Of a stretch of 31,946 bases of DNA, positions 2,449 to 23,508 are shown piece by piece (the first letter of the stretch is position 1; the number at the start of each line of letters is the position of its first letter). The notes beneath the pieces were generated by a model. It saw only the letters and a list, made by a program, of their open reading frames with translations, did not search any database and was not told the origin of the DNA. The stretch is from a virus. The translations under genes and the position numbers were made by a program. The DNA lies in IMG/VR virus record IMGVR_UViG_3300020442_002376, positions 1 to 31,946 of that record. One strand, 5' to 3'.

Positions 2449-2709
2449 TTATGCTCCTGTTTCCTTTTCTATGTAATCATAAATTACATCTGTCTCAATA
2501 TTGTGTTTCATAGAAACTTTATCTATTGTTGTTTCTATTTCTTTTACAACATCATTACATTCATAATCTAAATTATCATAAAAATCGGCCACCACATCTT
2601 TATGACGAGGTGATAAATTTTTAAAAGTCGGTGTATCTACCGGCTCTTTACTGATTAACTGGCTGACTCTCTGCACTTGGAACCTCGGCTTCAGGTGTAG
2701 GTTGTTCAT
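2449..2709 (-). CDS. Hypothetical protein in prohead core position
   Basis: Up to 86 aa with mixed charge and mostly helical sequence (for example residues 40-80, rich in Asp, Glu, Val and Ile). Not recognised. The ATG at 2709 gives a long overlap of 62 bases with the upstream 107-aa gene. A GTG at 2674-2676 has a GAGG motif six bases upstream and would shorten the overlap to 29 bases, giving 75 aa, so the real start is uncertain. The neighbours suggest a role in the prohead core or portal region, but nothing in the sequence proves this. Confidence 0.6.
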   Translation of the reverse strand: MNNLHLKPRFQVQRVSQLISKEPVDTPTFKNLSPRHKDVVADFYDNLDYECNDVVKEIETTIDKVSMKHNIETDVIYDYIEKETGA

Positions 2710-2971
2710 TACCGTTATCTGTAAATTCTATCTCTTGACCTTTTGTGTCCATAACTTGGTCTGTTTTAGGACTAGGGTCAATAACTGCCGGTTTAGGGTC
2801 GCTATGAGCTTCTGGCTCTGTACCTGCGAATATTCTACCAGCAATATCTTGTCTAGCAGCGTCAAGTGAAGTTGCTACTTTGTCTCTTAATGCGTCTTTA
2901 AATGCCTCACCAGCACCTGCATTATCACCTGTCGCTAACTTGTCTATAAAGTTTTGTATTTTCTCTGACAT
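2648..2971 (-). CDS. Prohead core protein, gp68/gp67-like
   Basis: 107 aa. The N-terminal half is helical (MSEKIQNFIDKLATGDNAGA, then FKDALRDKVATSLDAARQDI) and the C-terminal half is acidic, Pro-rich and low in complexity. This two-part layout, and the position directly after the portal gene, match the small prohead core proteins of T4-like phages (gp67, gp68), which support scaffold assembly and are processed by gp21. An AGGAGA ribosome binding site precedes the ATG. I favour gp68-like because of the N-terminal helix pattern, but the assignment to gp67 or gp68 is not secure. Confidence 0.6.
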   Translation of the reverse strand: MSEKIQNFIDKLATGDNAGAGEAFKDALRDKVATSLDAARQDIAGRIFAGTEPEAHSDPKPAVIDPSPKTDQVMDTKGQEIEFTDNGNEQPTPEAEVPSAESQPVNQ

Positions 2972-2981
2972 AATTTATCTC

Positions 2982-4496
2982 CTATTTGATTTCTCTAGTA
3001 TATTCGCCTGCGTCTGGCATAGCAATAATACCGTCATCAATTTCTTTCTTAATTTGTTTATCTATTTCAGCAATTTCTCTATCTGTTTGTCTTAATACAT
3101 TCTTTCTAACAAACTCAACAGAGAAATACTTACCAACATAATCTCTCATTGAATCAGCCAGTCTCAATCTTTCCATTAACATTTCTGACTCTTTCAATTC
3201 TGCAAAATGTCCATCTTGTAAGAAATTATATTGTATGTTGTCTCTCAACATAGACCATTCTTGCTCTGCAATTACACCTTTTAAGACTAATTGAGTTTTT
3301 AACAAATCATTAAAGAGTTCAGTAAATTTCTTTCTTAATCTTTGTACAAATTTTGTAAACTTCAATTCGTCTCTTGTAATTTCAGTTGAACGGCCTAAAT
3401 TAAATCCTTGCGAGCCTTCTAATCTACTCACAGGAACGTTTAAAGAACGATATAGTTTCGCTCTAAAATACTCAATGTCAGCAATCTCACCTAAATTCTG
3501 ACCACCTGGTAAAGTATCAATTTGTGTACCTCTACCACCTTCTCTACTTGGTAACCAGAAATCTTCCAACATAGACATATAGTTTCTATCGTCTCTGATT
3601 TCACCTGTACTTGCGTCATAAACAAGTTTGTTTCTATATCTTGCCATAACGTCTCGTAGATATTGTTCAGCTTTTGCTTTAGGTAAATTACCTACATCAA
3701 TCTTAAAAATTCTTCTTTCAGGTGCTCTAGCAATTCTGTAAATAACTGAAGCGTCTTCTATCATACGCAACTGATTTACAGGCTTAATTGCTTTGTGTAA
3801 ATATGATAAAACAATATTCTTGTTTTGGTCAATTATACCAGACGGACAAAATGCGATTGTGTCTGAAGCAATCTTAATACCACCTGAAGTAGTGTTTGAA
3901 ACGCCTTTTTCGTTGTAGATGTAGTATTCTTCAAACTCATCAACAACCGTCAATCCATAAGGTGTAGGACCGTCTGGACGCTTCTTCCTAATCTCTCTTA
4001 TCTTTTTGATTTTTCGTGGGTCAATGTATCTTAACTCTGTAATACCTTTGATTGGCGACTCTCTATCAATAACTTTATGATAGTAAATTCTACCATCAAC
4101 GTACCATCTTCTAAAGATGTCGTGACCTCTAGTACCAAAGTTCATTAACCTTAATACTTCTCTGAATTCTGTATCAATTTTTTTCTTGATTTCTACACCG
4201 TACTCAACACCACTTAAATCCAGCTTTACTGCGTCTTTTAATTCATTGGCAACGATAGCCTCATTGATAATATCTTCAACTGCCATATCACACTCGGGGT
4301 GTAGGGCAATCTCTCTATATCTTCTAATAAGTTCCTGCTCGTTCTTAGCAGTACCCTCCATATCAAGGTACTGACCAAAATAACCACCAGCGGCGACGGT
4401 TTGTGTTCCGTCATCCGCTTGTGGTGTAGTAAAGCTTTGTTTTGGATCCTGCGGCTTTTTCTTCCGTGTGATAGAAAATCCAAATAAATCTGCCAT
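2982..4496 (-). CDS. 20: Portal vertex protein gp20
   Basis: 504 aa, close to T4 gp20 (524 aa). The protein forms the dodecameric portal through which DNA enters the head and on which the prohead starts. Recognisable T4-like portal sequence includes IALHPECDMAVEDIINEAIV (about residues 64-83), ITELRYIDPRKIKKIREIRK (about 152-171) and SRLEGSQGFNLGRSTEITRD (about 357-376). It starts MADLFGFSITRKKK, a common portal N-terminus in this group. It has a late promoter variant 28 bases upstream and is followed after 10 bases by the prohead core gene. Full length with no interruption. Confidence 0.96.
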   Translation of the reverse strand: MADLFGFSITRKKKPQDPKQSFTTPQADDGTQTVAAGGYFGQYLDMEGTAKNEQELIRRYREIALHPECDMAVEDIINEAIVANELKDAVKLDLSGVEYGVEIKKKIDTEFREVLRLMNFGTRGHDIFRRWYVDGRIYYHKVIDRESPIKGITELRYIDPRKIKKIREIRKKRPDGPTPYGLTVVDEFEEYYIYNEKGVSNTTSGGIKIASDTIAFCPSGIIDQNKNIVLSYLHKAIKPVNQLRMIEDASVIYRIARAPERRIFKIDVGNLPKAKAEQYLRDVMARYRNKLVYDASTGEIRDDRNYMSMLEDFWLPSREGGRGTQIDTLPGGQNLGEIADIEYFRAKLYRSLNVPVSRLEGSQGFNLGRSTEITRDELKFTKFVQRLRKKFTELFNDLLKTQLVLKGVIAEQEWSMLRDNIQYNFLQDGHFAELKESEMLMERLRLADSMRDYVGKYFSVEFVRKNVLRQTDREIAEIDKQIKKEIDDGIIAMPDAGEYTREIK

Positions 4497-11895: not shown

Positions 11896-11903
11896 TATTT
11901 ATA
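11896..11903 (-). promoter_or_regulatory. T4-type late promoter for gp13-gp17
   Basis: Exact TATAAATA on the minus strand, 22 bases before the gp13 ATG and just beyond the stop of the bilin reductase gene. Confidence 0.85.
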
Positions 11904-11907
11904 ATAA

Positions 11908-12615
11908 TTATTTCAAGTAGGGTTGGTTTTCTGAAACAAATGGAAATAGGTTGTCCGAGCAGAATAATTTGATATCCTCTTCAGGCAAACCAAGTGATTG
12001 CATAACTCTAGGCGTGTGAGGATTCTTTTGTTGATGTTCAGAGTAGTAATTTTGTGCCTTAATTACGTCTGCCATTTCAGCCTCGCCTTCGTGATTTCTT
12101 ATCTTGTCAATGTAATTATTTAAATTAGATACTGCCATTGTACAGATTTTATTTAATTCGTCTTCTTCTCTAACGTTACCAGCGGCTATCATACCTCCCG
12201 AAAAGATAGCCTTTGCCCACTCTGGTAACTCTCTCTCTTTACTCGGTTTAAACCACTTGTTTTCTTCTATGAACCATTTTGTTAATGGGTGGTCTTTTTG
12301 TAATAAAGGACTAAAATCGTGAAAGGCGCCTGTGACCTTTTTTTCACCTGCAATAATATCAAAACCGTAAATCGGTCCACCATTTGTCAACATAGGAAAT
12401 AAACATAGATGAGCCATCCAAAGACCTTTAGATTCTCTAACATCAACTACGTCAAGATGAGCTCTTCTAATATATCTGTTATTCCAGGTTCTATTGACCC
12501 AACCTAACTTTTCATTATTGAATCTTTCCATACCTGGTTCATTGTATTCAACCAGATTATTGTTTAAGACTTCAATAGTCTCATCTTTCCACTTAATAAG
12601 TCTTTCCCAAATCAT
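11908..12615 (-). CDS. pcyX: Ferredoxin-dependent bilin reductase, PcyA/PcyX-like
   Basis: 235 aa from the ATG at 12613-12615, chosen because AAGGA stands five bases upstream; the longer frame opens with a TTG at 12648 and no better signal. The enzyme reduces biliverdin using reduced ferredoxin. Family segments are WMAHLCLFPMLTNGGPIYGF (about residues 66-85), DIIAGEKKVTGAFHDFSP and SEHQQKNPHTPRVMQSLGL. His69 and Asp86 align, with identical 17-residue spacing, to PcyA His88 and Asp105, which bind and protonate the bilin. The residue aligning with PcyA Glu76, needed for 18-vinyl reduction, appears to be Asp55. The Asp of the PebA/PebS C-terminal motif is Asn here, as in PcyA. This pattern fits PcyX, reported from uncultured marine phages to make phycoerythrobilin. 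The choice of PcyX over PcyA is inference. It overlaps the heme oxygenase gene by 23 bases. Confidence 0.88.
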   Translation of the reverse strand: MIWERLIKWKDETIEVLNNNLVEYNEPGMERFNNEKLGWVNRTWNNRYIRRAHLDVVDVRESKGLWMAHLCLFPMLTNGGPIYGFDIIAGEKKVTGAFHDFSPLLQKDHPLTKWFIEENKWFKPSKERELPEWAKAIFSGGMIAAGNVREEDELNKICTMAVSNLNNYIDKIRNHEGEAEMADVIKAQNYYSEHQQKNPHTPRVMQSLGLPEEDIKLFCSDNLFPFVSENQPYLK

Positions 12616-13183
12616 ACATTTCCTTAAATAGTTTTGTTGCACTTTCAAAACAAAAGATTGCTTCAGGCAACACGTTTACCTCATATAGGTTTAAATAACT
12701 TTCAACTCTTTCTTTTACAATTCTCTTATATTCTTTTACTTCTTTATGCTTAAAGATATAATATCTATTAGGACCAGGTGTCTTTCTCATAATCATTTGA
12801 CCACCAGATAAATCACCTAAATGTCTAACATAAACGTGAGCATATAACTTTTCGTTTTCACCTCTAATAGTATCTAAATGTTCAACGTAAGCCTTTGTGC
12901 TTTCTGTTAATTCAGGTGGGCTACCAATATCTGTCCATAAGTGTGTGTAATCATAATGAATATGTGGTGCTCTTGGCAAATTTTTTGTGTCCATAAACAA
13001 AGAACTTTCTAAACAATATTCTTCTAGTTTAGAATAACAAGCTAGTTGATTGTAAAGATAAGTTGCATATAATCTTTCGTCTATCTCGCCTGACAATAAT
13101 ATTTTTACAAAGTCTTGTCTTTCTGCGTTCTTATGATATTCCCAAGTTAACTCGGTAATTTTATACTTCTTCTCGTTGTCCAT
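12593..13183 (-). CDS. ho1: Heme oxygenase
   Basis: 196 aa, somewhat shorter than cyanobacterial HO1 (about 240 aa). It oxidises heme to biliverdin, CO and iron, the substrate step for the bilin reductase encoded next. The proximal helix reads ITELTWEYHKNAERQDFVKI, with His17 as the axial heme ligand. The distal helix has the hallmark glycine-rich motif RHLGDLSGGQMIMRK at residues 120-134. A Tyr/Lys-rich C-terminal section is typical. The gene overlaps the 255-aa gene upstream by 23 bases and the reductase downstream by 23, so the three are almost certainly translated from one message. There is only a weak, distant GAGGA upstream of the ATG, consistent with coupling. No ferredoxin gene is visible, so electrons would have to come from the host or from elsewhere in the phage genome. 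Confidence 0.93.
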   Translation of the reverse strand: MDNEKKYKITELTWEYHKNAERQDFVKILLSGEIDERLYATYLYNQLACYSKLEEYCLESSLFMDTKNLPRAPHIHYDYTHLWTDIGSPPELTESTKAYVEHLDTIRGENEKLYAHVYVRHLGDLSGGQMIMRKTPGPNRYYIFKHKEVKEYKRIVKERVESYLNLYEVNVLPEAIFCFESATKLFKEMYDLGKTY

Positions 13184-13928
13184 ATAATAAATCTTCGTCC
13201 TCTAAAAATGGTTTTTCTCTTGTCCACCTGTTATCATCAACACCTTTTCTGTGGTCAATAATTTTACTTTTGTCTAATGGATAATCATCTGGTGTTTTAT
13301 GGTCAACAAAGCCTTGTTTCCATTCTGCAATTACTCTTTCAGAGTCTTTAATTCTCCAATCGCCAAATTCTTTTGTTTCAATCCATAAATCTTTTGTATT
13401 CATAAAAAAGTCAGACATACCAACAATTGCTTTGATAGTATCTTGTCTTGTTATTGCAAATCTTTTTTTATCGTAATCTTTTAATGGTAATAAAAAGGCG
13501 TTTACTTGTTCTTGTTCAACTTTTAATACATCTTTAAATAAATCTACTAATACACCGTAAATAACTTGAACAGAAAATCTATTAATTGATATTTTATAAT
13601 CAGTTGTCCAAGTACCGTTTAGATTATATTTTTCACAAAGATAATCTGTGCCTTCAACTAGAGTTGGTACTTTTTGAAAAGCAGGTGCTCCACCGATTGT
13701 GTTATTTAAAGGAAACGGCCATAATTCTAGCCACTTATTAGTAAAATCTTTTGCAACTTCGTGAGTATCAAAGTTCCAATCTTTCATTAATAATTCTATA
13801 CTATTAATGAGAAACCAAATTTGATACCAGTAAGTAGCTTGTTGCTCTTTAGGATATTCTTTACTAAACTTATCTGAAAAGATTTCGTGTGTTTTGAATC
13901 TTAAATAGTTTTGTTTCGTTTTGTACAT
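13161..13928 (-). CDS. Unknown protein leading the bilin cassette
   Basis: 255 aa, not recognised. The N-terminal third is rich in aromatic residues, especially Trp and Tyr (QQATYWYQIWFLINSIELLM, then FTNKWLELWPFPLN). The middle is helical with alternating charge, and the last 60 residues are acidic and hydrophilic, probably extended. No signal peptide, clear membrane segment, metal-binding Cys cluster or nucleotide motif is visible. It does not resemble the known bilin lyases (CpcT/CpeT, CpcS, CpcE/F) by eye. A GAGG ribosome binding site precedes the ATG, and a near-consensus late promoter lies 30 bases upstream. Its stop overlaps the heme oxygenase start by 23 bases, so it is the first gene of this unit and likely works with it or with its product. 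Confidence 0.85.
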   Translation of the reverse strand: MYKTKQNYLRFKTHEIFSDKFSKEYPKEQQATYWYQIWFLINSIELLMKDWNFDTHEVAKDFTNKWLELWPFPLNNTIGGAPAFQKVPTLVEGTDYLCEKYNLNGTWTTDYKISINRFSVQVIYGVLVDLFKDVLKVEQEQVNAFLLPLKDYDKKRFAITRQDTIKAIVGMSDFFMNTKDLWIETKEFGDWRIKDSERVIAEWKQGFVDHKTPDDYPLDKSKIIDHRKGVDDNRWTREKPFLEDEDLLYGQREEV

Positions 13929-13958
13929 TTTAACCTCATAATAAAAATAGTCAAAAAC

Positions 13959-13966
13959 TATTTATT
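13959..13966 (-). promoter_or_regulatory. Probable late promoter of the bilin cassette (variant)
   Basis: AATAAATA on the minus strand, one mismatch to TATAAATA. It is 30 bases before the ATG of the 255-aa gene and overlaps the stop of the fibre gene. The spacing matches the exact copies elsewhere in the window, which supports a real site. Confidence 0.5.
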
Positions 13967-16205
13967 AGTCGCCTGGCTGTGAAGCCCAATGGGTTCGGTA
14001 GTTATTACCACCCCAAGATGAAATCGTTTGAGTATAGTATCTGTATGGCATAATATCGTATAGATACGTATTGTTATTACCTGCATAACCACAAGTATAT
14101 AACTTACCACTTGAATCTCTAGCCGCAAAGTTTTGAGCAGTTGGATAACCGTAGCAATGTAAGTCAACAATCTTACTATTGTTAGGCATAGTACCTCTTC
14201 TTTTTCTATGTCTGTTTTCAGAGTTACCTTCAAACGCTTGCTCTGGCATATGTTCCCAACCATCTGAATCGTTTGACGGATCCGAGTTAGTACCTGAAGG
14301 ATAGAAACCTTGAGAGTAACCACCGTACCATACTTCACCTGATTCATCAAGTATTAGAGGGAATTCGTATTGATAAGAACCATCACCTCTGTTTTCATTC
14401 ATACCTGCAATGTATCTTACGTATTTTGGTCCTCTTAAATGAGACATCATTCCGTGAATACCACCAGAGTTGTACCAGTATCCGTTTTGTGAACGTGTAC
14501 CTCTACCGCCGTATGTTCCGTAATTACCATCATTTACCCATAACATACCAGTAGATTTTTGTCTCATATACATCCATTTGTGTTCATCACCACCACACCA
14601 GAATTCATCAATATCACCGTTTAAGTGGAAATCTGTTCTTTGAAATTGTGAAATGTATCTTGTAGCGTTATCACCTAAGCCGTACATACCAGGAACTTGA
14701 CCGGCGTTTAAGTAACCTGTGTACCACATATAACCCTCACCATCAAGTACCCAAGTACCTGCGTGTGATTGTGAAGAGTATGACCAATGTTGTAATAGTT
14801 TCATACCACCGTATAAATTCCAGTTTACTTCTACTCTTCTTGGAATGTAATAGTATTTTGTACCTTGAGAAGTGTGAGATTCACTACCAACACCACCACA
14901 ACCGTGAACGTTTTGTCCCCAGAACCATAAGTATCCGTCTTCGTCAAGAGCGTGGAAAAACATTTCTTCGTTACCGTTTGCCCACATATCAACAATTCTC
15001 TTTTGATTAAAAAATGATTGTGGAATTTTAACAGGTCTTTTTACGTTAACTGAATAGAAAGAAAATGAGTAAGGCGAACCTGCGTTTGTATCAGTTGAGT
15101 TGTTAATATTAGGGTTACCACCACCAAATTGACCTTGGTTGTTATGACCCCACATCCATACTGAACCGTCTTCACCTAATGCAAACTGCATACAAGCAGA
15201 GTTGTTTTGACCTTGACCTGAAGAACCAATTTTTACAATTTTAGTTTCGTTAAATGAACGTATATTTTCACCTAACCAGTCAACGGTATCACTAGCTGAT
15301 ACTCTGTTTGTGTAATTTCTGTCGGAAGTATTTGTGTTACCACCTTCGTTATAACCTAATTGATAATGCGAGTTATAACCAGCAGAATAAACTTCTCCGT
15401 TATTCATCAACCACCAAGATGTATTATTTGCTGATATGTGTTGAATACATTTAGGTGCTTCACCATCTGGTGTCACCATATTTCCTGTAAATTCGTTATC
15501 GTAAGCTAAATCTTTATTATCTGAAGAAGTCATCCAGTCAGTAAAAGTAAAACCTACGTTTTTAGGAGAACCACGTCTTGCATTACCTGATTGACCATCA
15601 CCCATACCCATTTGACCATTGTTGTTATTACCACCGTGGCCATAAAAGTCACCATCTGAATGAATACAACCAAGTGTATAGTTGTGTTGTTGTTCTCTTG
15701 AATTTCTACCCATATTGTACTTCCACCCTAAAGGAGCTCTATTAGTGAAAGATACAACTTTATTTCTGTCTGGAGTTTTATAAGGTGATTCGTAAATTTT
15801 CACCCAATATTCACTTGTTGTTCCATCGTGTTCTTCAACCCAAGTATTATAACGTCTTGTTCTTTTAATACATTGATAAATTTTTCTACCAACTGAACAC
15901 ATTTCACCTGGCTCGTATTGTCTGTAAAATTCCCATTCACCAATATCATCTGTTGAACGTAAGAATAATTGCCAGTATTTTGGATTGTCTGGTCTAAAAG
16001 TCTTTTGAACTAATCTCAAAGGATCCATAGAGTAGTTATTCGTGTTGACCATAAAGTCACCAGAAATTGTGTACGCAACAGGACAATCTCTTATACATCT
16101 ATAAGATTTTCCTTTCCACGCAACAATATCATTCTTGGAATAAGCTGTTCTATCTCTCCAAGGACCTTGCCATTTAAGTTTAAATTGTTCTAATTCAAAA
16201 GCCAT
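13965..16205 (-). CDS. Fibre-like protein with RCC1-type beta-propeller (746 aa)
   Basis: 746 aa. The N-terminus FKLKWQGPWRDRTAYSKNDI resembles the short CBM5/12-like modules at the start of the three other large proteins. It is followed by a second, diverged copy (GEWEFYRQYEPGEMCSVGRK). From about residue 180 to the end there are roughly eight repeats of about 50-70 aa with the RCC1 pattern, for example CMQFALGEDGSVWMWGHNNQ then GQFGGG, and NNGEVYSAGYNSHYQLG. RCC1 repeats fold into a propeller that usually binds proteins or ligands. In a phage this suggests a tail-fibre tip or receptor-binding protein. No signal peptide is visible. The first 10-20 residues likely attach to the virion. The gene lies last in the fibre group, next to the bilin cassette. 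The function is inferred from the domain pattern and context. Confidence 0.8.
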   Translation of the reverse strand: MAFELEQFKLKWQGPWRDRTAYSKNDIVAWKGKSYRCIRDCPVAYTISGDFMVNTNNYSMDPLRLVQKTFRPDNPKYWQLFLRSTDDIGEWEFYRQYEPGEMCSVGRKIYQCIKRTRRYNTWVEEHDGTTSEYWVKIYESPYKTPDRNKVVSFTNRAPLGWKYNMGRNSREQQHNYTLGCIHSDGDFYGHGGNNNNGQMGMGDGQSGNARRGSPKNVGFTFTDWMTSSDNKDLAYDNEFTGNMVTPDGEAPKCIQHISANNTSWWLMNNGEVYSAGYNSHYQLGYNEGGNTNTSDRNYTNRVSASDTVDWLGENIRSFNETKIVKIGSSGQGQNNSACMQFALGEDGSVWMWGHNNQGQFGGGNPNINNSTDTNAGSPYSFSFYSVNVKRPVKIPQSFFNQKRIVDMWANGNEEMFFHALDEDGYLWFWGQNVHGCGGVGSESHTSQGTKYYYIPRRVEVNWNLYGGMKLLQHWSYSSQSHAGTWVLDGEGYMWYTGYLNAGQVPGMYGLGDNATRYISQFQRTDFHLNGDIDEFWCGGDEHKWMYMRQKSTGMLWVNDGNYGTYGGRGTRSQNGYWYNSGGIHGMMSHLRGPKYVRYIAGMNENRGDGSYQYEFPLILDESGEVWYGGYSQGFYPSGTNSDPSNDSDGWEHMPEQAFEGNSENRHRKRRGTMPNNSKIVDLHCYGYPTAQNFAARDSSGKLYTCGYAGNNNTYLYDIMPYRYYTQTISSWGGNNYRTHWASQPGD

Positions 16206-16226
16206 TTTTCTACCTTTTAATTTTTA

Positions 16227-16649
16227 TTAACTAATTAATGCTGGTAAACCTTTTGTGGTATATATCGCATTAATGTCAGATTTAAGAGTGTTATGTGCTG
16301 TTTTTACAGCTTCAACATCATTGAACAAAGCGTCATACACTTCAACTTTTGAATATGTATCATCAAAAGCACCTTGTACTTTACTTCTTTCTATTAATAA
16401 TGCTGGCGTTTCTCTTAATTTTTTAAGAATTGCTAAATCATCTGAATCAGTAGCATCCATAACTTTTACCCCATACTTACTAGCATTATCGCCGTCAGTA
16501 GTGATGGTAACATTTGCGTCATCATAGTAAGAATATCCATAACCGTCAATTGTCATTAACGACACAGGACCTGTTCCACTTGACACAACCGGATGAGTGT
16601 AATCATCTTCTAAAGCAATTTCTTTTAGTCTCATTACTTTGATTGCCAT
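16227..16649 (-). CDS. Hypothetical protein between RCC1 genes
   Basis: 140 aa, not recognised. It starts MAIKVMRLKEIALEDDYTHP, then has a beta-type middle (GYGYSYYDDANVTITTDG) and a helical, charged second half. It lies between two large RCC1 fibre genes, 21 bases before the 746-aa gene and 33 bases after the 1209-aa gene, and has an exact late promoter directly upstream. It could be a fibre chaperone, connector or small virion protein; nothing in the sequence decides this. Confidence 0.65.
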   Translation of the reverse strand: MAIKVMRLKEIALEDDYTHPVVSSGTGPVSLMTIDGYGYSYYDDANVTITTDGDNASKYGVKVMDATDSDDLAILKKLRETPALLIERSKVQGAFDDTYSKVEVYDALFNDVEAVKTAHNTLKSDINAIYTTKGLPALIS

Positions 16650-16673
16650 TTTTTTCTCCTTTAGTATTAATAC

Positions 16674-16681
16674 TATTTATA
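16674..16681 (-). promoter_or_regulatory. T4-type late promoter for 140-aa and 746-aa genes
   Basis: Exact TATAAATA on the minus strand, 25 bases before the 140-aa gene, directly after the end of the 1209-aa gene. A TTTTTTCTCCTTTA stretch on the plus strand corresponds to an AAAGGAGAAAA ribosome binding site before the ATG. Confidence 0.8.
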
Positions 16682-16682
16682 A

Positions 16683-19600
16683 TTATCTTCCGTGACCTTG
16701 GTTATAACCTTGGCCATTTGTTGAAGTCCAACCGTGTGTCCACCAGTTATGTCCTGTCAACCAGTTATTTCTTCCCCAATGATATATTTTACCATATTCA
16801 TCTGTAAATCTATAACCACCTGCATATTCAGACGAACCTTGGTCATCTGAAGTTATGTGCATAGTTTTTACTTTAGCGCCAGCAGGTGTGTACCAATGGA
16901 AAGGATAGTAATTACCATCTTCACCAGTCCAGTTTGTACCTGCTTGAGGGTGAACCATTGAATTTCTTGAGTCGTAACCGTAGCAATAACTTCTACCACT
17001 ATCAGTTATCCAAAATGCTTTACCTTGGTCTGAATAGTTACCAGAAACATAAGCTTCTTTAATGTTGGTAACTTTTTGCATAACCGTAGGAGTACCTGTA
17101 CTACCTTGAGCACCACTACCACCAATTCTATATGATTGTGATGAACCTGCGTGATAACAAGTACCATCTTTTGTTCTCATATAAATTGTTTTGTAACCAT
17201 TCCAGTACATAACCCAAATATCAACAATGTCACCACCTGGTGCAACTTCAGTTTTTGTTAACTGCGTGTTGTTATTTGTAGTACCATCAGCAAAGTTACC
17301 GTAGTTGTTTTCACCACAATTCCATAAGTAGCCATTACCATCTAATAGGGTTACCCAACCATCATCACCATTACCGTTTATTGCCCAAACTGCGATACCG
17401 TTGTTTGCAACAGGATCCCAACCTTGCATTTTTGTAGGTCTGTATTTGTCAGTTGTTGTAGTATCACCTAATTGGCCGATACCGTTATTACCCCAAGCGT
17501 AAATGTTATCGCTGGCTGTTCTTGCATATGTACTTCTATTAGTTGAACATATGTCAATAATTTTTTCGTTATCAAAATATTTTGCTGGTATTCTGTAAGG
17601 TGCCACTTTGTTTTGTGTTCTACCATCACCAATTTGACCTTGGTCGTTATAACCCCAAGTCCAAACGGTACCTTTATCATCTATTGCTATTGTGTGATTT
17701 GTGTTATCACTCCATTGGTCACAATGAACTTTAATAATTTTTACATCTTCTAAACCGTGAACTCTAAAAGTACCATTTCTATCACCTTGCTCAGTACCGA
17801 TACCCATTTCACCGTTTGAGGATTCACCAACTACATATAATTCTCCGTTATCCATTAACCAATAACATCTTGAACGACCTTCTTGGATTTGAACACATCT
17901 AGGAGTGTGTAATGGTTTTCTTACCGTACTTCTATTTCTACCTCTGTTTTCATTGTAGCCTGTGTAGTTTAAGTCTTCACTTCTCCACCAGTCTCTCCAT
18001 CTAAAATTAATTTCGTGATAGAATGATGAATAGTAAGAACCATATTGTTGGAAACCTGTTCTAGGATAGTTAATACCCCAAGCAACACCATTTTTGTCAA
18101 TATGTCTGTACATACTATCTTCGTGTGTACAAGTTAATTGACCGTGTTTGTATGGCCAATGAATAGGACCTTTGTTAGGATACCAATGGTTAGCTTCGTT
18201 AATTTGGTTAACTTGACTACCAAAACTTTCCCAATCATTCCAGTATGAATCAATGTGTGCTGGATATTCTTGATATTCTTCTTTAATTAATTTACCACTT
18301 GTTGTTGTAGATTTTGTCATCAAAGGAGACCTTGTCATATCAGCAGGACCCATAACAGGAGGTCTGCCTAATGAATCTCTTATACATCTAAACATACCTG
18401 TTCCTGATTGAGGTTGGAATTCTGCTTTAGTACCATCACCTAATCTTTTTCTTTTTCTGTAAACTACAATATCATTGTATTTGTAGTGAGCTTTAGGATT
18501 GTACTCACCTCTAAATCTGATACCTGTTTGCATCCTATCCCAATGTTTGTAACCTCTCCAAGTTTCTTCAACGTTCCAACCTAAATCTTGGTACATATCA
18601 GTTTTTGAAGCTGCTAAACAGAAAGGATATATCTGCTGACTTCTCATTTTAAAGAAGCCAATTGGTATATAAATTTCTACGTGTCTGTCTTGATTTTTCT
18701 TCCAAGAGTATTGTTGACCACCTCTTGTCAAACCATTTTCAGTTGTGTATGCTGGCATATCACCAGTATAACCTGAACCATCATTTGCAATAGTGTCAGT
18801 AAAAGTTTCTTTGTATTGTGTTTCTGTAACCTGTTTATTGTTTAAGAAATATCTTACTAAACCATTTTTATTAGCACCTCTGTACATAGGAATGTTTGAA
18901 GGAGCATATGCTCTTGCTCTTGAATTAGGAGTTATAGTGTCTGCTGACCAACCCATTCCAGAGTGTTGTGAGCAATAGTAGTAAAGTTTATCAATACCTT
19001 TTCTAATTTTAATTTCTGTATAAGCACCTTTTTTACCAGGTGTACCTACAACTTTTACGCCAGTTGTATATTCTGAACCTGAAGCGTGTGTACCATTAGC
19101 AGTTGTAGAAAATCTTAATGGGTGACCTGTGTTTGAACTATGCGATTGGTCAAATCTGTAAGTTTTACCTTCAGTTAAATTTAAGGTAACATCAGCCGTA
19201 GCAGTTGAACCATTAATTGAATATTTGTTTGTTGAACCTGTATTATAGTAAGGGTGATTAGTTGGATTACCTGAAACTACTTCAACCTCTAAAATTCTTT
19301 CATCAACAGCAGTTGGGTCAATCATATCAGGTAAATAAAAGTTTGTAGAACTTTCATTACTTACCGTTTCATTATTAGGACCTCTTTGTATTTCAGAGAA
19401 ATTAACAACTGAACTTGCACCTGCACCACCCATTCTAGTATCTTCAGCATTTGCACCTGCAGCTGATAGATATAAAGGATAGAAAACACCTGAATCGCCT
19501 GTTGTAGTTTCACCAATTACAAAATAAGGACCATCGGGGTCAGCAGCTAATGAAGTGCCTGGTGTTGAATTGTGAATACCATCAGCAGTTGTTGAAAAAC

Positions 19601-20312
19601 CTAATGGGAAAGTTTTATTTGATTCGTCTCTTTGGTCAAATCTGTATCTGTAGCCTTCTTTGAAATGTGTAAAGTGTCTAAAACCACCACCTTGACCACC
19701 AAAGTTTTCTCTACCTAAATCTGAACTAGGTAATCTATTATCAAATCTAAATCTAATTGAAGGAGATGATTGAACATCTACTCTAAAATTATTTTCTACT
19801 GGAATGTAGTTTTGAAAAATTTGTACTTTATTTGTATTTAATTCACCATAGCCAAAGAAATTACCTCTATCACCCATTGTGTAATCTTCTTCGTCATTTA
19901 ATAAGTGATGTTGATAGTCTAATAAGTAACCGCCGTTATTTGAATTATTTGAGAACCAGTTTGCTTGACCAAATCTTTGGCCGTTTCTAGTTGACTCTTG
20001 CGTATTTTCATCACTACCATATCTTGAAGTATTAAGAATTTGATTACCTGTTTCATTACTTCTTTGGAAGTCATCATCTAATACGTGATAACCTCTTCTA
20101 AAATTAGGGTCATTTGAGAATGTTCTAGTCCAGAAATAACCTGTGTTTTTATCACCTGGAGCATAGTTGTCGTAACCATTTGATAGGTATGGATTAGTAC
20201 AAATCCATAGAGAGTTGTCAAACCAACAAACGTCATCTTTACGATAGTTAGTATTGCTGTTCCAATCTCCTTGGAAACTAAATTTTACTCTTCCTAAATT
20301 TATTTTTGCCAT
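16683..20312 (-). CDS. Fibre-like protein with cupredoxin-like module and RCC1 propeller (1209 aa)
   Basis: 1209 aa. Parts in order: an N-terminal CBM-like module (GRVKFSFQGDWNSNTNYRKD, residues 7-26); a first, degenerate copy of a cupredoxin-like repeat at about 215-285; a second copy at about 375-460 (GKTYRFDQSHSSNTGHPLRF, then YYYCSQHSGMGW); a second CBM-like copy near 595-645; and about seven RCC1 repeats from about 805 to the end (for example DDKGTVWTWGYNDQGQIGDG). The second cupredoxin copy keeps the spacing of a blue-copper site, Cys447-X2-His450-X2-Met453, with His397 as a candidate fourth ligand. The protein is probably a tail fibre or surface adhesin. No cleavage or signal sequence is visible. 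Copper binding is predicted from residues only. Confidence 0.82.
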   Translation of the reverse strand: MAKINLGRVKFSFQGDWNSNTNYRKDDVCWFDNSLWICTNPYLSNGYDNYAPGDKNTGYFWTRTFSNDPNFRRGYHVLDDDFQRSNETGNQILNTSRYGSDENTQESTRNGQRFGQANWFSNNSNNGGYLLDYQHHLLNDEEDYTMGDRGNFFGYGELNTNKVQIFQNYIPVENNFRVDVQSSPSIRFRFDNRLPSSDLGRENFGGQGGGFRHFTHFKEGYRYRFDQRDESNKTFPLGFSTTADGIHNSTPGTSLAADPDGPYFVIGETTTGDSGVFYPLYLSAAGANAEDTRMGGAGASSVVNFSEIQRGPNNETVSNESSTNFYLPDMIDPTAVDERILEVEVVSGNPTNHPYYNTGSTNKYSINGSTATADVTLNLTEGKTYRFDQSHSSNTGHPLRFSTTANGTHASGSEYTTGVKVVGTPGKKGAYTEIKIRKGIDKLYYYCSQHSGMGWSADTITPNSRARAYAPSNIPMYRGANKNGLVRYFLNNKQVTETQYKETFTDTIANDGSGYTGDMPAYTTENGLTRGGQQYSWKKNQDRHVEIYIPIGFFKMRSQQIYPFCLAASKTDMYQDLGWNVEETWRGYKHWDRMQTGIRFRGEYNPKAHYKYNDIVVYRKRKRLGDGTKAEFQPQSGTGMFRCIRDSLGRPPVMGPADMTRSPLMTKSTTTSGKLIKEEYQEYPAHIDSYWNDWESFGSQVNQINEANHWYPNKGPIHWPYKHGQLTCTHEDSMYRHIDKNGVAWGINYPRTGFQQYGSYYSSFYHEINFRWRDWWRSEDLNYTGYNENRGRNRSTVRKPLHTPRCVQIQEGRSRCYWLMDNGELYVVGESSNGEMGIGTEQGDRNGTFRVHGLEDVKIIKVHCDQWSDNTNHTIAIDDKGTVWTWGYNDQGQIGDGRTQNKVAPYRIPAKYFDNEKIIDICSTNRSTYARTASDNIYAWGNNGIGQLGDTTTTDKYRPTKMQGWDPVANNGIAVWAINGNGDDGWVTLLDGNGYLWNCGENNYGNFADGTTNNNTQLTKTEVAPGGDIVDIWVMYWNGYKTIYMRTKDGTCYHAGSSQSYRIGGSGAQGSTGTPTVMQKVTNIKEAYVSGNYSDQGKAFWITDSGRSYCYGYDSRNSMVHPQAGTNWTGEDGNYYPFHWYTPAGAKVKTMHITSDDQGSSEYAGGYRFTDEYGKIYHWGRNNWLTGHNWWTHGWTSTNGQGYNQGHGR

Positions 20313-20331
20313 AGTTTTTAATCTCTCTTAT

Positions 20332-20339
20332 TATTTATC
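20332..20339 (-). promoter_or_regulatory. Late promoter variant for 1209-aa gene
   Basis: GATAAATA on the minus strand, one mismatch to TATAAATA, 20 bases before the ATG of the 1209-aa gene and overlapping the stop of the 1057-aa gene. Confidence 0.55.
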
Positions 20340-23300
20340 CTAAAATTGGTACGTGTGGTGTACAATAATATTGACTATCAGAGTTACCTTGCATATAACT
20401 TCCACCATAACCGTTGATGTAATATCTGTTATCATAAGATTTATATTCCCAAAAAGCGTAAACGTTATCAGAGTTATCTCCGTAACCACAACCTCTTAAA
20501 TCATCAACATTACCTGTTAATGAAGTAGGGAATCTAACTTGAATAAAGTAACCATTGTTAAAATGTTCTTTTAAGTTTTCAGCAGCTCTATCGTTAGTAG
20601 AATTTGTTGAAGACCAACCTACTGAAGCTTGACCATATCTGTTATCACCAGTTGTAAATACGTGTCCGTCCCAAAGTAAAACTTTTGTACTATTATCATT
20701 ATAGTGTGGATAGAAAGACACCTGTTTAACATTATGGAAATCTCTTTGTGTGCTACTATTAACTTGAAACTTCGGTGTTTGCCAATTACTTTGTTGAGAG
20801 TTATTACCAATACCTAATGAGTAATGGTTATTATAACCTACACAATATAATTTACCTAGTGAGTCAATACACCAAGTTTGTGCGTAATCACCGTTACCTC
20901 CCATCCAAAAGTTTTCACAATCGGCGTTAGCAGCATTACCTGGACCATTTGCAGCTATTGTCCAAGTGTTTAAGTTAGTAGTGTTACCATTTCCAAAGTG
21001 ACCTTGGTTATTGTAACCTGCAAAATATAATGTTCCTCTTTCAGTTAAAATACCTACTGATAAAGATGAACTTCTACTTAACATTTGAACTTTTTTAATT
21101 TCACCAACACCTGTGCCATCAAAAGTTACCGTTGTTACCTCTTGAGGAGTGCTTTGGTTTGTAGTATTTCCTATACCTAATTGTCCGTTATTGTTATAAC
21201 CCCAAACATATAATTTTTTCTCTTTAGTATAAGCCATACACATTACATAAGCGTCACCACAAGTCCAAAATGCTTCAATCTCACTATTGTTAAAGTAAGT
21301 TGATTTTGAAATTAATTGTGGTGTGTTATAGTTAGTTGTATTGTTTGTACCTAATTGGCCGTAACCGTTATAACCCCAAGACCATAATTGACCATCTTCG
21401 TCAATTGCATAACAAGAGTGTGTATTAGAGTTGTAACCTTGCCAGTTAGAAGTAAAAATTCTTTTAATTCTTGTATCTCTCCAAACGTGTGAAGATGTGT
21501 TAGCTCTTAAATATACGTTTTGGTTTGAACCACCAACTCTTACGGGGTGGTCTCTGTTTGAAGTTGAAGCGTCACCTGATTGACCGTGACCACCATAACC
21601 CCAATGATAAACTTCACCTGAATTCATAAGAGCCATACCATTTTCATAACCACCTTCAAGTTGAATTACTTTAGGAACTTCTCCGTCAGGAGTTGAGTGA
21701 ACACCTGTTCCACCATTATCTGTACTTGCCCACCAATCATAGTGAGAAAACTGCATTTGTGTAGCAGTCATAAAAGTTTGGTTAGATGAGTTTTGTCCTG
21801 TTGAAGCAGAGCCCCAGAACCAAATATTACCTGTACCACCGTGGAATACTGGCCAGTCAACACAATGTCTTGATGTTCTTTGACCTGCTAATCTGTAATA
21901 TTTGTTATCATCACCTAATGGTCCGTTATTAATTAACGATACACATTCGTGAGGATTACCTGTGTACATAGAAGCAGAGCCTCTAGTTTGTTTTATAGTT
22001 GTAGCAACTTGACAAGTTAAGTCTGCGCCACCACCAAAAATATCTCCATCAAAAGTAAGTGTATCACCAACAACGTTGTTTTCACCACCTGATAACATAC
22101 CTGTTTCTCTAAACCATCTTCTATATCTTTGTGAATTTTGATATTGTCTTTCTACTTCAATTGTAGCTGTACCTGCAACACCAGCACCATTTACTTGGAA
22201 AGTAAAGTCAGCACCACCGCCACCACCTAATGAAGCGTCAGCAATAGTTACCGTTTCATTATTAACATAACCTGAACCACCTGTTGGTGTAGATGATTTA
22301 TTTCTAGTTTTAACTAGTGTAAGTTTGGTTACTGCACCTGTGCTATCTACTACTACGTCAAATTCTGCACCTGTACCAACACCTGTTGTTGCTGATTGTG
22401 AAACACCTGTATAACTACCTGCTGTTCTTGAAGAGTCAGCAGCTGAAAAGTTATCCATTGCTAAAATACTACCATCACCTTGAACGGTAATTTTAAACAT
22501 ACCTGGATGTGCGTTAGCAGCTGAGTTTGATGTTGATTTAGGAGATACATTTCTAAAAACTCCGTGTAATCTTGAAGAGTCAGCAGCTGAAATATTATTT
22601 ACGGTTTCAATTACACCGTTGTCTTCATATCTTTCATCATCTGATTCAAAAGTTGCACCTAATTTTAACCAGTACATATTAGCGTCTGTATCAATATTTC
22701 TATTATAAGGTAAAAATCTTTCTGTACCATCTGTTGTATGTTCTCTTAAACAGATATAAGTTGATAAAGTTTCTTTTTTAGATTGGCCTTCGTAGTCAGT
22801 ACCCATATCATTACTGATACCGTGTCTAATTTTAACAATATCATTTTCATAGTAAGTTAAATAACTACCACTATTGTCTGTATTGTCGTGGAAACCTCTC
22901 CATCTAAATGAATTTCTTAATGGTCTCCAAGTATCCCAATCTGCAACTACAATTTTACCACCGTAAGCTGCACCACCTGTGCCTGCTGAGAAGTACCAAA
23001 TTTCATCTGGTGTATCTTTTGTAAATTCTACTTCAACTTTTCTACTTGTTTTAGTATTATATTTTGATGTGTTTACGTAATCTGTTTGAGAAACAACTTC
23101 CTCATTGTGATAATAGGTTACACCTTCAGTTAAGTAGTTTGAAGTTTGACTTGTAGCTGATGTAGCCAAAGCCAAAGGTTGGTCATCATTGTTATTATTG
23201 TTTTGATGAAAGATGATTTTATCACCTCTTCTTACATATAAATCTTCAGCCCAACGAATAGTTGAAGTTTCATCTACGTCAATCTGGAATTTAGTAGTTG

Positions 23301-23508
23301 AGTCGCTTGGGTCTGTTGTTGTTTGTATGTTGTAGTAATATTGAGTATTTTGTTCTGGTCTTCTTCCACTAACACTAGCTTCTCTTATGTTAAGATAGTC
23401 AGTATTGTTCCAGATAACAATATCATCTTTTTTATAAGTGGCAGAATTATCGTATTCACCACGATAATTAAACCATAAATTTCCGATTTTTGTTCTAGTG
23501 ATTGCCAT
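20335..23508 (-). CDS. Fibre-like protein with RCC1-type beta-propeller (1057 aa)
   Basis: 1057 aa. Order of parts: N-terminal CBM-like module (RTKIGNLWFNYRGEYDNSAT, then KKDDIVIWNN); a cupredoxin-like fold at about 80-190 without the copper ligands (WYFSAGTGGAAYGGKIVVAD where CSQH-type ligands would stand); a Gly-rich beta region at about 310-480 with two AADSSR-type repeats; and about seven RCC1 repeats from about 545 to 1040 (for example YAIDEDGQLWSWGYNGYGQL and TKEKKLYVWGYNNNGQLGIG). It is very similar in build to the 1209-aa and 746-aa proteins. Probably a tail-fibre or receptor-binding protein. Full length with no frameshift seen. Confidence 0.8.
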   Translation of the reverse strand: MAITRTKIGNLWFNYRGEYDNSATYKKDDIVIWNNTDYLNIREASVSGRRPEQNTQYYYNIQTTTDPSDSTTKFQIDVDETSTIRWAEDLYVRRGDKIIFHQNNNNNDDQPLALATSATSQTSNYLTEGVTYYHNEEVVSQTDYVNTSKYNTKTSRKVEVEFTKDTPDEIWYFSAGTGGAAYGGKIVVADWDTWRPLRNSFRWRGFHDNTDNSGSYLTYYENDIVKIRHGISNDMGTDYEGQSKKETLSTYICLREHTTDGTERFLPYNRNIDTDANMYWLKLGATFESDDERYEDNGVIETVNNISAADSSRLHGVFRNVSPKSTSNSAANAHPGMFKITVQGDGSILAMDNFSAADSSRTAGSYTGVSQSATTGVGTGAEFDVVVDSTGAVTKLTLVKTRNKSSTPTGGSGYVNNETVTIADASLGGGGGADFTFQVNGAGVAGTATIEVERQYQNSQRYRRWFRETGMLSGGENNVVGDTLTFDGDIFGGGADLTCQVATTIKQTRGSASMYTGNPHECVSLINNGPLGDDNKYYRLAGQRTSRHCVDWPVFHGGTGNIWFWGSASTGQNSSNQTFMTATQMQFSHYDWWASTDNGGTGVHSTPDGEVPKVIQLEGGYENGMALMNSGEVYHWGYGGHGQSGDASTSNRDHPVRVGGSNQNVYLRANTSSHVWRDTRIKRIFTSNWQGYNSNTHSCYAIDEDGQLWSWGYNGYGQLGTNNTTNYNTPQLISKSTYFNNSEIEAFWTCGDAYVMCMAYTKEKKLYVWGYNNNGQLGIGNTTNQSTPQEVTTVTFDGTGVGEIKKVQMLSRSSSLSVGILTERGTLYFAGYNNQGHFGNGNTTNLNTWTIAANGPGNAANADCENFWMGGNGDYAQTWCIDSLGKLYCVGYNNHYSLGIGNNSQQSNWQTPKFQVNSSTQRDFHNVKQVSFYPHYNDNSTKVLLWDGHVFTTGDNRYGQASVGWSSTNSTNDRAAENLKEHFNNGYFIQVRFPTSLTGNVDDLRGCGYGDNSDNVYAFWEYKSYDNRYYINGYGGSYMQGNSDSQYYCTPHVPILG

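Follow-up and report, generated by a model that had tools for sequence, protein, structure and literature searches.

Gene organization of the locus

The window, that is, the whole 31,946-nucleotide stretch of viral DNA that was analysed, carries on its minus strand a compact three-gene cassette. It lies between the gene of a fibre protein with Pfam RCC1 and RCC1-like domains (16205-13965) and the gene of the neck protein gp13 (11874-11068; head-tail adaptor Ad2, PHROG 211). The cassette consists of a gene for a 255-aa protein of a phage-only family (u255; 13928-13161), a heme oxygenase gene (HO; 13183-12593) and a gene for a ferredoxin-dependent bilin reductase (12615-11908), here identified as the phycoerythrobilin (PEB) synthase PcyX. 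The overlaps of u255 with HO and of HO with PcyX are both 23 bases long, with PcyX taken to start at the ATG (12615) and not at the TTG of the extended frame (12648). These three overlapping frames between the fibre genes and gp13 had been recognized in the preliminary description, and the ORF list confirms them on the minus strand. The location corresponds to a variable island named the host recognition cluster (PMC7029224). At 13965-23508 of the window, three consecutive genes encode RCC1-like fibre proteins (746, 1209 and 1057 aa) with beta-propeller repeats; the use of RCC1 repeats in phage fibres may deserve attention in its own right.

Dozens of independent contigs carry the same cassette. 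Mean protein divergence, calculated over 30 loci, was 4% for PcyX, 9% for gp13, 11% for HO and 45% for u255. The dN/dS values indicated strong purifying selection on HO (about 0.06-0.14) and PcyX (0-0.06), and were 0.35-0.49 for u255, which evolves much faster than HO. Given this recurrence and the strong purifying selection on HO and PcyX, the cassette is not a product of chance.

HO and PcyX are predicted to convert heme into PEB

The HO protein, an enzyme type that converts heme into biliverdin IX alpha, Fe2+ and CO, scored 69 bits against PF01126 (Pfam cut-off 23) and is similar to solved heme oxygenases. Its proximal His17 is invariant in 74/74 sequences, and the GDLSGGQ loop is intact and conserved. 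The reductase scored 60.4 bits against PF05996 (cut-off 31) and matches PcyX_EBK42635 (crystal structure 5OWG) at 235/235 residues; Asp55, Asp86, His53 and His69 are invariant in 78/78 relatives, and Asp55 is the PcyX-specific catalytic residue (PMC11480375). The PcyX enzyme of phages reduces biliverdin, with 15,16-DHBV as the intermediate and phycoerythrobilin as the product (PMC6755814; PMC11480375). Thus, at the level of sequence, the active-site residues of both enzymes are shown to be complete, and PcyX has the sequence of a crystallised enzyme for which PEB formation has been reported. The route from heme through biliverdin to a reduced bilin, which the preliminary description had assigned to these two genes, holds as a prediction. 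Its comparison with the ho1-pcyX pairs of uncultured marine phages proves to be more than an analogy, as the reductase is letter-for-letter the crystallised PcyX. For this reason, and because the pelagiphage origin of marine hemO-pcyX has been published (PMC11480375), the HO-PcyX pair itself is not new.

The nearest isolate is Pelagibacter phage Mosig, isolated on SAR11 strain HTCC1062, in which PcyX (85% identical) and HO (65% identical) occupy the same place before gp13. Since cyanophages carry ho1, pebS and pcyA, we also considered an ordinary cyanophage photosynthesis AMG pair (ho1/pcyA or pebS). Against the above identities to Mosig, however, cyanophage PcyA reaches only 23-31% and cyanophage HO about 26-32%. 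A cyanophage origin was rejected on these values and is extremely improbable; the ordinary cyanophage ho1/pcyA clade with a cyanobacterial host, which the preliminary description had named as the outcome that would speak against its reading, is not what was found. A contig with different neighbours (L504:3520-4567) encodes a very divergent HO (30%) together with a bilin reductase (33%).

The host group is probably SAR11

The gp13 protein is 83% identical to that of Mosig and 63% to that of HTVC008M. A 109-kb relative that carries u255-HO-PcyX shares 92% (MCP), 88% (TerL) and 83% (DNA polymerase) identity with Mosig. A published gp13 phylogeny likewise puts the hemO-pcyX contigs among the pelagimyophages (PMC11480375). 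A non-photosynthetic host, which the preliminary description had considered, is borne out by the SAR11 host of Mosig. In HTVC008M, an isolated SAR11 myophage, u255, HO and ferredoxin were unmatched at the thresholds used.

We then searched 197 Pelagibacteraceae genomes for four domains, namely PF01126 (HO), PF05996 (bilin reductase), PF00502 (phycobiliproteins) and PF00360 (PHY), and found them in 0/197; the BphP GAF domain alone, GUN4/BchJ and the HugZ- and IsdG-type heme degraders lie outside the scope of this search. Ferrochelatase, used as a control, was present in 167/197. Despite the many incomplete single-cell assemblies in this set, we judge zero of 197 to be a strong result. These data support SAR11 as the host group and indicate that its sampled genomes lack HO, bilin reductase and the known bilin acceptors tested. 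Because none of the four domains was found against 167 genomes with ferrochelatase, the host appears to be devoid of a bilin pathway and of any known bilin acceptor, so that an acceptor, if there is one, should be encoded by the phage. Among the phage genes, u255 would be the best candidate for this role in the infected cell. Mosig_00059 (L002:11357-12124) is annotated as a putative ferrochelatase and by eye looks more like another 2OG-oxygenase-type protein; this annotation has no Pfam support and was dropped as evidence of heme supply.

Distribution of the cassette among pelagimyophages

Among 54 loci that were seeded by gp13 and had at least 1.4 kb of upstream sequence, 23 carried PcyX and 31 carried neither HO nor PcyX; HO without PcyX was never seen in this census. 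In the cassette-free loci inspected, gp13 mostly lies directly behind fibre genes. In the near clade (PcyX at least 91% identical), u255 directly precedes HO in 35 loci. The Mosig-type clade keeps HO-PcyX and is devoid of u255, so HO-PcyX does not need u255.

A sister lineage (PcyX about 52% and gp13 about 75% identical) has the order fibre, u270 (259-277 aa), HO, PcyX-like reductase, AlaS and gp13, as determined from 17 contigs, some of which are cut at an end. In most cases an ORF of about 65 aa lies between AlaS and gp13. The 5-aminolevulinate synthase scored 564 bits against TIGR01821 (cut-off 339); a sister-lineage phage supplies the first step of heme synthesis as well as heme breakdown. 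The ORF list of the window contains no AlaS, either in the PcyX-gp13 interval or at any other place. The u270-HO-PcyX-AlaS operon of this lineage can be seen in contigs L487-L503, for example at L493:2588-6933. The order fibre-u-HO-PcyX is common to both lineages, with u255 in one and u270 in the other.

Links through u270 support descent of u255 from heme oxygenase

The preliminary description had left u255 as an unknown gene; we judge it the most interesting part of the cassette, as it can be tied to HO through u270. By itself, u255 matched nothing in Pfam, NCBIfam or the PDB sequences, nor could a PHROG be assigned convincingly. In contrast to this, u270 is a clear HO homologue: it matches the adjacent HO by BLASTP (44 bits over 124 residues) and by hhalign (probability 98.5%, E=1.5e-15), and nearly all of the best 50 PDB fold matches of its AlphaFold model (pLDDT 76.5) are heme oxygenases (probability 1.00, best E=6e-3). 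In turn, u255 is connected to u270 by hmmsearch (E=1.4e-7 among 12,910 ORFs) and hhalign (91%, E=1e-6 over 66 columns). When the u270 profile was run over the 9,286 unique ORFs of all the DNA analysed, the hits with E<1 were u270 itself, 90 heme oxygenases and 30 u255 proteins, and nothing else. Direct comparison of the u255 and HO profiles is weak (0.5%), yet in the same register. The homology of u255 to HO therefore depends on u270 as a link and is found mainly in the N-terminal 65-120 residues. Together, these sequence relationships support a common descent of u255 and HO. Profile comparison with all neighbour clusters was negative, by which u255 as a diverged 2OG oxygenase or another island protein was rejected; the viral fold library searched gave no useful match.

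The AlphaFold model of u255 (pLDDT 79, pTM 0.72) is all-helical, and most of its best PDB folds are TenA, AetD, BesC, CADD and UndA, with E >= 0.85 and thus not significant. These proteins belong to the heme-oxygenase-like fold superfamily. One reading of these matches is that u255 and u270 are non-heme di-iron oxidases of HO-like fold (as UndA, BesC, AetD and CADD) whose substrate would be a bilin or some other compound, and the invariant E49, H121, E123, D169, H173 and H176 of u270 would suit such an enzyme. In u255, however, His14 is the only invariant His, so the metal site is not shared, and the closest folds of u270 are heme oxygenases rather than di-iron enzymes. We therefore hold a di-iron oxidase to be very unlikely.

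u255 has lost the catalytic motifs of HO

The heme-ligand His17 of HO aligns with an invariant Arg12 in u270, and the GDLSGGQ of HO is replaced there by HSEI..NQ. By extrapolation of this alignment from u270, u255 has no His at the place of the HO proximal His, and the distal glycine-rich motif GDLSGG is absent from it. With the proximal-His and distal-glycine motifs lost, u255 should not cleave heme. A globin of the BBAG/phycobiliprotein type was rejected, as u255 has no globin or phycobilisome Pfam match and no invariant Cys that could serve covalent bilin attachment (CXRD attachment site).

An alternative to a role in bilin metabolism is that u255 is an unrelated structural or fibre-associated phage protein, such as an adhesin or a chaperone, which merely happens to be placed before HO. 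It lies behind a fibre gene, evolves fast and lacks catalytic motifs, and its divergence tracks that of gp13 better than that of HO (Spearman 0.51 vs 0.31). Its distribution, on the other hand, speaks against this. A scan of viral contigs by u255 alone returned 34 loci, nearly all of them already known HO-PcyX contigs, and wherever the context is visible the u255 homologues adjoin HO-PcyX; u255 was not found in fibre-gp13 loci without HO-PcyX, and a pattern scan of GTDB contigs gave no homologues. As u270 is in addition an HO homologue by both profile and fold, we regard a structural protein of this kind as unlikely.

We infer from these comparisons that u255 is an HO-derived pseudoenzyme and a candidate heme- or bilin-binding partner of the neighbouring enzymes. 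That it binds a tetrapyrrole of some kind is a serious possibility, though we would stop short of calling it probable. Two observations speak against such binding: phages of the Mosig type manage without u255, and its fast divergence could equally point to interaction with something that differs from strain to strain, for example a fibre or a host factor. More tentatively, and with the balance of our judgement against it, u255 might be a phage-encoded biliprotein, in which an HO copy past catalysis binds the PEB (or the biliverdin or heme) of the next two genes. If true, a bacterium without bilin biology of its own would contain a protein loaded with bilin, which might be virion-associated or respond to light.

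Electron supply and transcription

Both HO and PcyX use ferredoxin. A 2Fe-2S ferredoxin gene lies beside the DNA polymerase gene in Mosig (2701-3027), in the 109-kb relative and in 71/71 related phages with enough sequence; one copy is located at L308:5874-6200. In the phage collection, ferredoxin matches at E 1e-5 were confined to Mosig. Since all of these 71/71 related phages have the gene, regardless of the cassette they carry, a cassette-specific ferredoxin was rejected; the gene belongs to the core of the lineage, and the cassette can draw on it. The phage ferredoxin may well serve HO and PcyX.

The T4-type late promoter motif TATAAATA occurs nine times in the window, against a chance expectation of 4.3, and nine copies were reached in 4/100 shuffles. 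Eight copies are on the minus strand in gaps between genes (positions 730, 1407, 7093, 11896, 16674, 27749, 30739 and 31341), and the motif may be useful for mapping the late operons of pelagimyophages. A perfect copy at 11896-11903, directly after PcyX, represents the promoter of gp13 and is conserved upstream of gp13 in 142/150 relatives. The motif is absent upstream of u255 (0/36) and of HO (0/43). The late-promoter setting proposed earlier thus holds only in part: the motif stands in front of gp13, and a late promoter that drives the cassette is unsupported. With no copy before u255 or HO, read-through from the fibre genes probably accounts for transcription of the cassette, with gp13 probably restarting from its own promoter. 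The short gap before u255 (13929-13970) contains an AT-rich element, TAATAAATAGTTTTTGACTATTTTTATTATGA (TAATAAATAGTTTTTGA...), which overlaps the fibre stop codon and is also found, slightly altered, in the relatives shown. A hairpin at this place was rejected, as the predicted fold was no better than that of shuffled sequence.

Proposed role of the cassette

Taken together, we consider it probable that the cassette is a pelagimyophage operon which converts host heme into the pink pigment PEB late in infection, with u255 as an HO-derived, non-catalytic partner. The late timing would follow from the position of the cassette. HO would open host heme to give biliverdin, Fe2+ and CO, and PcyX, fed by ferredoxin, would reduce the biliverdin to PEB. 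The partner u255 would bind heme or bilin, and may hold or hand over the tetrapyrrole or control HO. PEB itself, beyond the released iron, would be the selected product.

The iron, however, offers another explanation, in which the Fe2+ that HO frees from host heme supplies the iron enzymes of the phage, its many Fe(II)/2-oxoglutarate oxygenases among them, PcyX only removes or recycles biliverdin, and u255 delivers heme or is dispensable. The HO-PcyX pair lies directly behind 2OG-Fe(II) oxygenase genes for 16/79 HO genes, Mosig included, and Mosig has about a dozen annotated Fe(II)/2OG oxygenases together with rubrerythrin and a class I RNR; SAR11 is without HO, and PMC11480375 discusses an iron role. 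Yet the 2OG neighbourhood is a hypervariable island (PMC7029224), so this adjacency may be incidental, and the AlaS of the sister lineage makes a heme precursor, rather than the phage only scavenging heme. Moreover, iron release needs HO only. PcyX always accompanies HO and is the most constrained of the cassette proteins, which suggests that PEB, or the removal of biliverdin, is under selection. Iron supply is thus in our view rather unlikely as the main purpose, and we favour PEB production with u255 as its partner. In other pelagimyophages, tryptophan-halogenase genes were observed among the 2OG-Fe(II) oxygenase genes directly before HO-PcyX (L036:2085-3635, L040, L058, L061 and L066).

PEB production by phages of non-photosynthetic bacteria has been called enigmatic (PMC11480375). 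The operon encodes a conserved HO derivative, predicted to be non-catalytic, which two diverged lineages have retained; it is a concrete candidate for the acceptor and offers a direct way of testing what purpose the bilin serves.

Comparison with known systems

The marine phage hemO-pcyX cassette is reportedly the subject of Ledermann et al. (2016, 2018). The PcyX of that cassette (PcyX_EBK42635, 5OWG) is identical to the protein encoded here, HO lies directly upstream in the same way, and the same reactions are expected; the papers compared, which do not include the two by Ledermann et al., say nothing of a conserved gene ahead of HO. The phage of the window is like Mosig EXVC030M (MT647606) in having HO-PcyX at the gp13 border, a SAR11 host and a ferredoxin of its own. 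Mosig is, however, without u255 and has four to six 2OG-oxygenase-type genes in that place instead. The hemO-pcyA/X-valaS cassette (PMC11480375) also places HO and FDBR genes beside gp13 in pelagimyophages, whereas the window has no alaS, and the u270 that precedes HO in the marine AlaS lineage is unmentioned in that text. The pseudo-HO before HO-PcyX, conserved in two lineages, accordingly appears to be new with respect to the text of PMC11480375, a comparison that does not cover Ledermann 2016/2018.

Bilin-binding globins (BBAGs) encoded next to pre-PcyA (PMC10151467) resemble u255 in that their gene stands beside HO and FDBR genes in non-photosynthetic bacteria, and the BBAG product binds bilin. 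They are globins, unlike u255, which has neither a globin match nor an invariant Cys.

Pseudo-heme-oxygenases are known from eukaryotes: Arabidopsis HO2 (AtHO2) has Arg for His, and Plasmodium PfHO, from which the His is absent, is inactive in heme degradation and essential for gene expression in the apicoplast (PMC11634067). As in these proteins, the heme-ligand His is missing from the HO-derived proteins described here, and the Arg of AtHO2 occurs in u270 as well; the likeness described here is one of motif. AtHO2 and PfHO are proteins of eukaryotic organelles, whereas u255 would be a pseudo-heme-oxygenase in phages, encoded beside its active parent within the operon of the active enzyme.
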